Origin: Prochlorococcus sp. AG-355-O17
Lineage (GTDB): Bacteria; Cyanobacteriota; Cyanobacteriia; PCC-6307; Cyanobiaceae
DNA length: 64,000 nucleotides
Direction: 5' to 3'
Assembly (NCBI GenBank): GCA_003280655.1
Contig: QCEK01000002.1
Span: 1 to 64,000, forward strand
The position numbers were made by a program, and so were the translations under genes. Position 1 is the stretch's first letter. Every line of letters starts with the position of its first letter. The notes under the pieces were generated by a model, which ran no database searches, had not been told where the DNA came from, and saw only the letters and a list, made by a program, of their open reading frames with translations. Of the stretch, positions 60,372 through 63,813 are shown piece after piece.

Positions 60372-60956
60372 ATGAGCTTAAAAGTAGGTCAAGAAGCACC
60401 AGACTTTAGTGCTACAGCAGTATATGATCAAGAGTTTAAGGAGATTACACTTTCAGGTCTAAGAGGTAAATGGGTTGTTCTATTCTTTTACCCACTAGAT
60501 TTTACATTTGTATGTCCAACTGAAATCACAGCATTTAGTGATAGATACCAAGATTTCTCGGCACTTAATACGGAAATACTTGGTGTATCAGTTGATAGCA
60601 AGCACTGTCATTTGGCTTGGATACAAACACCAAGAAATGAAGGTGGTATAGGTGATATCAACTATCCGTTAGTTTCTGACTTAAAAAGAGAAATTTGCCA
60701 GGCTTACAATGTTCTAAATGATGATGGGGAGGCTGATAGAGGTTTATTTCTTATCAATCCCGAAGGAGTAGTTATGCATACGACTGTTAACAAGGCTCCT
60801 GTAGGTAGAAATGTTGATGAAACGCTAAGGATTCTTCAAGGCTATCAATACGTTGCGGCAAACCCCGATGAAGTGTGTCCAGCAAACTGGACCCCCGGGG
60901 AGAAAACAATGTTAGAGGACCCAAAAGGTAGTAAGGAATATTTTTCTGCGCTATAG
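60372..60956 (+). CDS. Typical 2-Cys peroxiredoxin
   Basis: Abundant thiol peroxidase of the AhpC/Prx1 class, cytosolic. Peroxidatic cysteine C48 in [13 protein letters not shown]; resolving cysteine C169 in [12 protein letters not shown]; both present, so a dimeric typical 2-Cys enzyme reduced by thioredoxin or NTRC. 194 residues. The C-terminal YF-like end (SKEYFSAL) is compatible with overoxidation sensitivity. Single gene with its own promoter; ends 15 bp before the convergent membrane-protein gene. Confidence 0.95.
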
Positions 60957-60971
60957 GAGAATTAGAAACAT

Positions 60972-61724
60972 TTAAGTAAGTAATGAGTAGTAAATAATTA
61001 TAAAAAAATAAAAAATAAATATATTCAAAAAGGGGATAACATCCCCTATTTGAGGTTTGGGCACGATCCAATCGCTCAAATTAGTTTTATATGATAAAAA
61101 GCACCACGTATAAAAAGAAATTTCTATTGCGACTAGGATAAAAAGATTAATTAAATTTAAGTCATTTAAACCAAAATATCTATAAATATGAAACTGATCA
61201 TCAACACTAATATTAATTATTTGAAGATGCCAAATATAGAGAGAAATCAAGATAAAATTTACCAATATTATTTTTTTTAAAAAAAACCTAGATTTCTTAA
61301 AAATTAATAGGATAGAAATTAAAAATATGAAAAAACATAACTGTTGAATATCCGGTTTTGGGACATTAATTCCTTCAAGAAATAAATTAATTATAAGATC
61401 AAAATTTATATATATATAATCAGCTATTAAGAAAGAGAGAAATATTAAATTTATTGCTACTAAGAATAATAATCTTTTTCCTTTAATTATTTTTTTACTA
61501 TGGATTTTATCCTTAGTAAAACTATAATCTGTGTAGTTTTTTAAAGAGTTTACATACACCAAAGATGGACATATTGCTCCGCTCAAATAGTAAAGGATTA
61601 AATAAAAGGAAATATCATTAATATTTAATGAATACAAATTAAACCATTGTTTTTGTACAAATGGAAGAATAAGTAAAAATGAAAGTGTAACTAATAACTT
61701 CGTTGTATTTTTTTTAATTATCAA
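60972..61724 (-). CDS. Polytopic membrane protein of unknown function
   Basis: A 250-residue protein with about seven hydrophobic segments (for example SFYLILYYLSGAICPSLVYV, LLFLVAINLIFLSFLIADYI, LINLFILVAIEISFYTWCFL). No family recognised. It follows the FtsH-like gene by 32 bp on the same strand, so the two are probably co-transcribed. A perfect GGGGAT/ATCCCC hairpin with a T run, a standard terminator, lies inside its last 25 codons at 61026..61047, which is odd. Confidence 0.65.
   Translation of the reverse strand: MIIKKNTTKLLVTLSFLLILPFVQKQWFNLYSLNINDISFYLILYYLSGAICPSLVYVNSLKNYTDYSFTKDKIHSKKIIKGKRLLFLVAINLIFLSFLIADYIYINFDLIINLFLEGINVPKPDIQQLCFFIFLISILLIFKKSRFFLKKIILVNFILISLYIWHLQIINISVDDQFHIYRYFGLNDLNLINLFILVAIEISFYTWCFLSYKTNLSDWIVPKPQIGDVIPFLNIFIFYFFIIIYYSLLT
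61026..61047 (-). terminator. Rho-independent terminator inside the 3' end of the membrane-protein frame
   Basis: On the minus strand AGGGGAT-GTT-ATCCCCT followed by TTTTTG. The seven-pair GC-rich stem and five Ts fit a terminator for the ftsH-like/membrane-protein transcript. It lies 55 bases before the annotated stop. Confidence 0.6.
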
Positions 61725-61756: not shown

Positions 61757-63511
61757 TCAAACTTTCAACAATTTAGAAGTTGTTAATTTAAAAACTTTTT
61801 TATCTATAGTTTCTTGATTTAAAAGTATATCAACTAATTTATCTAGTAAGACTCTATTTTTTTTCAATATTTTTATTGAATTATTTAATGAAATTTTAGA
61901 AATATTTATGATTTCATTATCTATTCTAGAACTGGTATTTTCTGCTATGAGAGGCTTTCTTCTAAATAATCCATCTCCTAAATACATTTCATTATTATCA
62001 GAATCCATTGAAATTGGACCAATAATTGAAAATCCATATTTTGTAACCATTTCCCTTACGATATTTGTCGCATAAGAGATATCGTTCATGGAGCATTGTG
62101 TAATTTCACCATCACCAAAAACTATCGTTTCTGCTGCTCTTCCAGCTAGTGCAATTTCAATTTTTGAAAATAATAATCTTTTTGAAATCAATCCACTAGA
62201 AATTACATCTTCGTCAGGGCATATTTTTGTATATCCTCCTATAGATCCAGATCTAGGTAAAATCGTAATCTTATCAACTGATTCAATTCCATTTCTCACA
62301 GCAGATACAATTGCTCTACCTACTTCGTTATAAGCAATAATTTTTTTCATGTTAGGAGAAGTTATTAATGAGCTTCTCAGGCCAATGGTAATTTTATCAA
62401 GAGCATTTTCTATATGAAGATCACTGATTAGTTTAGATTGGTCTCTTGCACAGTGAATAGCACTTTCATTCATCAAGTTTGCAAGATCTGCTCCCGAAAA
62501 TCCAACTGTTCTAGAAGCCCAATATCCTAAGTCAACTTCGCTTGAAAGTGGTTTAGAAAGTGAGTGAACTGAAAGAATTTTTTTTCTTCCATCTAAATCT
62601 GGAAGCATTACTTCAATTTTCCTATCAAATCTACCTGGTCTTAATAATGCTGCATCCAAAATATCTGGTCTATTTGTTGCTGCTAAAACAATAATGCCAG
62701 AATTATCTGCAAAACCATCTAATTCAGTTAGAAGCTGATTAAGGGTTTGTTCTCTTTCATCATTTCCACCTCCGATCCCAGAACCTCTTTGCCTACCAAT
62801 GGAATCAATTTCATCAATGAAAATTATACAAGGAGATTTTTCCTTAGCCTTAGAGAACAGATCACGAACTCGGCTTGCTCCAACACCAACAAATAGTTCT
62901 ACAAACTCTGATGCCGATATTGAGAGAAAAGGCACTCCTGATTCACCAGCAATTGCTTTAGCTAATAATGTTTTACCTGTTCCTGGTGGGCCTATCAAAA
63001 GAACTCCCTTGGGAACTTTTGCTCCAAGATTTTCAAATTTTTTTGGTTCTTTCAAAAATGTTATTACCTCTTTTAATTCCTCAGCGGCTTCAGGGACGCC
63101 AGCCACATCATCGAATCTCGTTTCTACATCATCAATAGTTACAAATTTAGCTTGATTTTTGGTAAAACCAAAAGCTCTGGATGCCAATTTTGATGTACTC
63201 CTTAAGATTAAGACTAAAGCTAATATGAAAATCAGGAAAAGACTTATTGAAGCAAATGAATTAGCAGCTGAGGCTTCTTTTCTACTATTGTTAATAGTTA
63301 GATCTACCTTATTTTCAGTAGCTTTTTCAAGAATTAATTGATCGTTGTAAAGGATAGGTATTTTAAATTTATCGCCATTTTTATACAGAACATCAATTTC
63401 TCTCTGCCTAGGATAGAAAAATATTGATTCTATTTTCCCCGCCTCTATATCTTCTAGAAGATCCGAATAACTTGATTTAGAATCTGAATATGAGAATTTT
63501 GATCTAAACAC
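61757..63511 (-). CDS. FtsH-like AAA protein lacking the HEXXH protease motif
   Basis: A 584-residue FtsH homologue. Walker A GPPGTGKT is at 174-181, Walker B FIDEID at 231-236, the second region of homology with arginine finger near RPGRFDR at 301-307: the AAA ATPase is intact. In the peptidase domain the zinc motif HEAGH is NEVGR (N395 to R399), while the third metal ligand region SMNDISYAT (D477) remains. Both histidines are lost, so it should be proteolytically inactive. Only one membrane helix (about 88-104) is predicted; the usual first helix is missing. Probably an unfoldase or a subunit modulating active FtsH, like plastid FtsHi. Upstream of the 250-residue membrane protein. Confidence 0.9.
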
Positions 63512-63642: not shown

Positions 63643-63813
63643 ATGGCTGTACCAAAGAAGAAAAAATCAAAGAGCAAAAGGAACCAAAGGCACGCTGTTT
63701 GGAAAGGAAAAGCAGCAATAGCAGCTCAAAAAGCTATATCTCTAGGTAAATCAGTTTTAACTGGGAAAGCTCAAGGATTTGTTTATCCTATTGAAGAAGA
63801 AGAAGAAGAGTAG
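63643..63813 (+). CDS. rpmF: Ribosomal protein bL32
   Basis: A 56-residue basic protein read from the plus strand: [20 protein letters not shown], then [20 protein letters not shown] and an acidic end EEEEEE. MAVPKKK and the RHAVWK block are diagnostic of L32. The poly-glutamate tail is unusual but seen in cyanobacterial forms. Divergent from the ftsH-like gene, 131 bp upstream; converges with the Ycf20-like gene 3 bp later. Confidence 0.96.

Follow-up and report, generated by a model that had tools for sequence, protein, structure and literature searches.

FtsH4 of Prochlorococcus, an FtsH homologue lacking the zinc-protease motif, is a putative and apparently maintained pseudoprotease

The closest described systems to the gene analysed here are the FtsHi proteins of plastids and the FtsH1 protein of Synechocystis. 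The FtsHi proteins (FtsHi1, 2, 4 and 5, together with FtsH12 and Ycf2) are eukaryotic and combine a retained AAA+ domain and FtsH architecture with a mutated HEXXH motif; FtsHi4 is predicted to have a single transmembrane helix (PMC8197885), as does the protein studied here. Synechocystis FtsH1 (Slr1390) pairs with FtsH3 in an essential, proteolytic heterocomplex of the plasma membrane that has Fur and other regulators under its control, and the same source assigns FtsH1 and FtsH2 to type B while FtsH3 resembles type A (PMC11287208). For picocyanobacteria, PMC6300248 names FtsH4 as the orthologue of Synechocystis FtsH1, a pairing it calls 'less obvious' than the others, and FtsH2 as the orthologue of Synechocystis FtsH3. 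Four FtsH isoforms have been counted in print in Prochlorococcus, FtsH4 among them, and one FtsHi has already been stated to occur in Prochlorococcus marinus SS120 (Mishra et al. 2019, 2021); in the accessible parts of these papers it appears as one gene of one strain within a survey, with no orthology, extent or neighbours given. The open-licence literature yielded nothing further on FtsHi in Prochlorococcus, and the extent, origin and stepwise erosion of the defect, as well as the associated UPF0182 remnant, are new insofar as we did not find them in that literature.

Our analysis concerned a window of 64,000 nucleotides (contig QCEK01000002.1, assembly GCA_003280655.1, Prochlorococcus sp. 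AG-355-O17), in which a sequence-only reading had noted an FtsH homologue with a lost zinc motif (Table 1). With 647.7 bits against TIGR01241 (cut-off 600), the product is an FtsH over its whole length, and the NCBI model would therefore label it an ATP-dependent zinc metalloprotease. Walker A and B, the pore loop and the arginine fingers are all present, and the retention of Walker A, Walker B and the arginine finger that the sequence-only reading had claimed for this gene extends across the same-genus copies. The M41 domain is also kept (151.8 bits; Pfam cut-off 29.9), although in a comparison of the four M41 proteins in the source genome it scores 155 bits, against 231-255 bits for the other three. 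The HEXXH of an active M41 zinc peptidase is replaced by NEVGR, and the codons confirm the earlier observation that both histidines are gone. The gene thus has the sequence signature of an FtsHi-type pseudoprotease (M41 kept, HEXXH lost, AAA+ motifs kept), with Glu396 of the motif and Asp477 both still there. An AlphaFold model (pLDDT 77, pTM 0.60) matches FtsH structures at the level of fold only; the matches include chains of the Ycf2-FtsHi motor, and active FtsH structures match as well or better. Scans of the window for RNAs and tRNAs returned two tRNAs.

Table 1. Coordinates of ftsH4, its sequence elements and its neighbours in the window
Feature	Coordinates	Strand	Remarks
ftsH4 (putative FtsH pseudoprotease)	61757..63511	-	584 aa from a GTG start; comprises one TM helix, AAA+ and M41 domains
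N395-E-V-G-R at the place of HEXXH	62315..62329	-	codons AAC GAA GTA GGT AGA (read 62329-62315)
Asp477, third zinc-ligand position	62081..62083	-	read from the sequence
Walker A GPPGTGKT	62969..62992	-	identical in 53/53 same-genus copies
Pore loop ELFVGVGAS	62873..62899	-	identical in 47/48 same-genus copies
Walker B IIFIDEID	62804..62827	-	identical in 46/48 same-genus copies; IVFIDEID in 2
Arginine-finger segment RPGRFDR	62621..62641	-	48/48 same-genus copies
Residues 86-104, the sole TM helix predicted (no TM1)	63200..63256	-	hydropathy
tm250, putative UPF0182 (PF03699) remnant: N-terminal membrane domain, truncated	60972..61724	-	hhalign; directly downstream of ftsH4
rpmF (ribosomal protein L32)	63643..63813	+	divergent neighbour
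Peroxiredoxin (AhpC/TSA)	60372..60956	+	convergent neighbour

The isoform was assigned with the qRT-PCR primers published for the MED4 FtsH genes (PMC6300248). The forward primers of FtsH1, FtsH2 and FtsH3 match L116, L100 and L129 without a mismatch, and both FtsH4 primers match L082 exactly; since all of these lie in genome G015, that genome is MED4, and the window gene, being 82% identical to L082, is FtsH4. The MIT9313 FtsH4 primers show 0 and 3 mismatches to L067, the motif of which is HEIGH. In a midpoint-rooted tree of 112 rows, none of them from Synechocystis, FtsH4 stands apart from the FtsH1, FtsH2 and FtsH3 clades. The candidate type-A partner discussed below keeps HEAGH in all five clade genomes read (L001, L100, L101, L106 and L099). 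The FtsH3-type paralogues (L003, L113, L119, L128, L129 and others) read ATNQPE and ELFVGAGAA at positions at which the remaining FtsH compared with them carry ATNR and mostly FVGVGAS.

Loss of the zinc site extends throughout the genus and beyond it. Both histidines are missing from all 53 same-genus (g1) copies, which read NEVGR (51), NEAGR (1) or NEGGR (1), so that N and R at the two histidine positions are conserved and sequencing error can be ruled out as the cause of NEVGR. The third-ligand aspartate, present in the window as the sequence-only reading had it, is not fixed in the genus (D 47, N 4, E 1, H 1). A further 16 zinc-less copies were read outside the genus, nine of them in g35 (QIIGK or QIIGR) and the others in g9 (NEAGK, NEIGR, YEIGR, HEIGK), g25 (NEVGK, HEAGR) and g4 (RNASK). 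Over these 69 genomes the second histidine is gone from every one and the first from 67, the glutamate is lost in g4 and g35, and the third ligand may be D, N, E, H or Q. The second histidine is replaced by Lys or Arg in all 69 copies, a basic residue that may fill the empty zinc site. Every other family genome read, 43 in all from 30 genera, has HE[IV]GH and the third Asp, and FtsH1-like proteins read from other cyanobacteria likewise keep HExGH. Copy L050, which reads NEAGK, is presumably that of SS120. The FtsHi reported from that strain (Mishra 2019) is probably an orthologue of the window gene.

Two copies, L049 and L063 (HEAGR and HEIGK), are living intermediates that retain the first zinc histidine and have the second replaced. 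The most eroded FtsH4 read (L125:2879-4600, genome G103) has RNASK and RAGRFDK, and its M41 domain scores 99 bits, yet the frame is still open in full; this copy sits on a very long branch, and its tree position is unsure.

The gene appears to be maintained. Among the matches listed, 78 of the 101 same-genus genomes have an ftsH4 match of 75-100% identity, and none of these 78 contains an internal stop (four are cut by contig ends), which rules out local decay as the cause of the motif loss. In same-genus genomes at least 90% complete, ftsH4 was found in 29 of 30, and the thirtieth (G099) also lacks the neighbouring rpmF. For nine of the 151 family genomes a full FtsH4 row was absent among the best rows listed (the G103 copy was found by further search). 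Seven of these nine also lack rpmF, a gene found in 4/4 control genomes; in G175 the contig ends within ftsH4, with rpmF alongside, and G223 has a third M41 fragment on another contig, so none of the nine is counted as gene loss. Eight assemblies (G099, G110, G117, G137, G148, G174, G197 and G230), with completeness at 99% in one case and 97% in two, yielded neither rpmF nor ftsH4, probably owing to a recurrent assembly gap at the locus and not to gene loss. Joint absence of FtsH4 and UPF0182 in G117 and G110 was withdrawn as evidence of coupling, since rpmF beside them is missing too. A search of phage sequences matched 227 records, 226 of them at less than 60% identity, and gave nothing bearing on ftsH4; Microcystis phage MaAM05 (MW495066.1) has an annotated ftsH that is 49% identical over 81% of the query. 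Of the stretches collected, 23 fetched later were read for motifs only and are absent from the trees; L004 (the gene of L005), L054 (a paralogue), L064 and L069 (the loci of L130 and L131) and L266 (a repeat of L040) were set aside, and L126 and L160-L162 contained no ORF by the search pattern used.

Two trees, both built from alignments without the zinc-site columns, place the zinc-less copies together. In the 112-row tree (17 of 48 same-genus copies collected by then, all 16 zinc-less copies from outside the genus and all 26 HExGH copies collected by then) the 33 zinc-less rows form one clade with an SH-aLRT of 97, and in the 46-row tree (10, 14 and 22 of these, respectively) the 24 zinc-less rows form one clade (98/96.7); in both trees this clade is nested among HExGH FtsH4. 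L107, L108 and L117 were left out of the trees. The zinc-site defect therefore apparently has a single origin in an ancestor of the clade. Mapped on the 46-row tree, the second histidine and the glutamate each show a single change, whereas there are at least 3 changes at the first histidine and 9 at the third ligand; by our reading of the tree, the first histidine would have been lost in six lineages if lost histidines never return. Because the loss is nested inside the picocyanobacteria, in trees that hold no plant sequences, it probably arose separately from that of plastid FtsHi. The plastid parallel drawn by the sequence-only reading is apt as an analogy, with common origin disfavoured.

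Estimates of dN/dS for FtsH4 were 0.038-0.116 in 14 zinc-less pairs (AAA 0.021-0.068; M41 0.062-0.224), compared with 0.063-0.099 in four HExGH pairs (M41 0.082-0.128) and 0.015-0.025 in six paralogue pairs, several of the dS values being above 1. Values of 0.04-0.12 for FtsH4 of the window type are well under 1 and show that zinc-less FtsH4 is under purifying selection. Between genera, FtsH4 diverged 5.1-9.3 times as much as its paralogues in six zinc-less pairs (the FtsH1-type paralogue is missing from the comparison in pairs with G107) and, in one HExGH genus pair, 4.0 times (AAA) and 2.3 times (M41) as much. The M41/AAA ratio of FtsH4 was 1.9-3.3 in zinc-less pairs, where the paralogues gave 2.7-3.2; in the HExGH pair it was 1.8, against 3.2 for the paralogues. 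Together with the M41 dN/dS values, these ratios point to a protease domain still under selection; a modest extra relaxation of this domain after zinc loss is possible, since its dN/dS goes up to 0.22, compared with no more than 0.13 in HExGH pairs, and the M41/AAA ratio is 1.9-3.3, compared with 1.8. Clade-wide motif loss, an intact ATPase and low dN/dS thus support a maintained pseudoprotease, in line with the earlier suggestion of retained function instead of decay.

The two N-terminal membrane helices of FtsH are reduced to one in the window protein. The absence of the first is real, as had been read from the sequence, but it is not linked to the zinc defect: in a hydropathy scan of stop-to-stop open frames, which leave true start codons unfixed, a single helix precedes the AAA domain in 35/37 picocyanobacterial FtsH4, comprising 22/24 HExGH and 13/13 zinc-less members, so that a tie between the two losses is ruled out. 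The remaining HExGH rows, L131 and L043, show a weak extra hydropathy peak. In other cyanobacteria, a second helix resembling a signal peptide exceeds that threshold in five of seven FtsH1-like proteins. On this evidence the absence of TM1 appears to be a family trait older than the zinc loss. An in-frame peptide upstream of FtsH4, EVFFLGTAI, is common to L131 and L094, which belong to two genera, and may be what is left of TM1 or of a different reading frame.

The gene neighbourhood is conserved on one side and altered on the other. An upstream, divergent rpmF was found at all 92 FtsH4 loci fetched (90 distinct), and at the 15 HExGH loci that group with Prochlorococcus a UPF0182 open frame starts at most 60 bases away from the stop of ftsH4. 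In g1, g4, g9 and g25 a membrane protein of 250-276 aa occupies this place. Comparison by hhalign of 15 such small proteins with 15 UPF0182 N-termini gave 97.8% and a score of 95.2 over 240 colinear columns with an LSDW motif, whereas the reversed control gave 17.5 and 20 column shuffles at most 21.1; the low-light rows gave 96.1, and the high-light rows alone 39.3 and 57.2%. The window protein alone matches the UPF0182 profile weakly (E 0.006, with strong composition bias), 4/15 small-protein rows fall below the inclusion threshold of that profile, and Pfam reports no family in tm250, the PF03699 cut-off being out of reach. By profile and position, tm250 appears to be a truncated UPF0182 remnant without the C-terminal ~650 residues, and an unrelated conserved partner is ruled out. 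It is open in 43/43 same-genus loci long enough to tell (5/48 are cut), and its dN/dS of 0.29-0.62 suggests a fast-evolving protein under weak constraint. The sequence-only reading had proposed this neighbour as a partner of FtsH4; the neighbour is real, but it is not obligate, being absent from nine g35 loci with FtsH4 zinc-less all the same. PF03699 itself occurs in 0/101 same-genus and 111/151 family genomes (misses being taken from absence in the match table), and, among genomes with the zinc site read, full-length UPF0182 in 0/27 zinc-less versus 36/43 HExGH ones. All zinc-less genomes form one clade, so this association rests on one event. The seven HExGH genomes lacking UPF0182 all belong to g7, in which the motif is HEVGH in 7/7 read, and FtsH4 can therefore stay active without UPF0182. 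A sequence search of solved structures with UPF0182 gave no match, the open-licence literature held no report of UPF0182 in cyanobacteria that we could find, and none of the UPF0182 papers found there names FtsH in its title or the start of its abstract.

What the protein does may be read in several ways. On balance, we favour FtsH4 being a pseudoprotease that most likely supplies the ATPase or scaffold half of a mixed hexamer, the inferred partner being active type-A FtsH2. In such a ring FtsH4, as the inactive type-B half, would use ATP to pull substrates through the hexamer, and FtsH2, as the active type-A half, would cut them; such a ring would correspond to the FtsH1/3 complex in the plasma membrane of Synechocystis, by which Fur and similar regulators are removed. 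Of the zinc-site residues, the second histidine would have been lost first, to K or R, followed by drift at the first histidine, at the glutamate and at the third ligand, as only the partner's sites would be needed. Protease activity of type-B subunits is reportedly dispensable in Arabidopsis (Zhang 2010). The orthology of FtsH4 with FtsH1, the published FtsH1/3 complex and the HEAGH kept in the type-A subunit make a mixed ring plausible. Against it, that orthology is graded 'less obvious' in PMC6300248 and our own tree is midpoint-rooted and contains no Synechocystis row; the 5.1-9.3-fold greater change of FtsH4 would also be expected from a new homomeric role or slow relaxation; the possible extra relaxation of the protease domain weighs in the same direction; and a subunit with a single helix could pair differently from one with two.

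A homohexameric, non-proteolytic membrane unfoldase or extractase, possibly acting with tm250 along the lines of the Ycf2-FtsHi motor of plastids, is rather unlikely, even though the retained motor motifs, the fast evolution of FtsH4 separately from its paralogues, the open tm250 directly downstream and the Ycf2-FtsHi chains among the structural matches would suit it. Zinc-less g35 copies do without tm250, the match to plastid chains comes from the FtsH fold common to both, and published relatives act as heterohexamers (PMC11287208). Doubtful, too, is a bolder form of this idea, in which the ftsH4-UPF0182 pair would have been remade on one stem, with zinc site and C-terminal domain lost, into an ATP-driven non-proteolytic membrane motor, an independent bacterial counterpart of plastid Ycf2-FtsHi whose loss order the HEAGR and HEIGK intermediates would record. 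Equally improbable is a relaxed remnant heading to loss, its protease having become dispensable through genome streamlining: change five to nine times that of paralogues, stepwise erosion of the first histidine, glutamate and third ligand, the state of the G103 copy and a truncated or lost UPF0182 would all fit, but the frames are free of internal stops, dN/dS is close to that of HExGH FtsH4 (0.06-0.10), and the gene is kept in nearly all of the more complete genomes. That FtsH4 still cleaves through another metal site or mechanism is very hard to credit; Glu396 and Asp477 persist in the window, yet the second ligand is basic in every zinc-less copy and neither the glutamate nor the third ligand is constant within the clade.

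Prochlorococcus and Synechococcus are, according to PMC3441193, the most abundant oxygenic phototrophs, and the FtsH4 copies read from the zinc-less clade have no zinc site, though the NCBI model would name FtsH4 a zinc metalloprotease. The tie to UPF0182 is a lead to the role of a family named as uncharacterised. If FtsH4 forms a half-dead ring of the FtsH1/3 type, it would be a natural experiment on the number of active subunits that are needed, and would offer a bacterial model, with intermediates, for the rise of plastid FtsHi.
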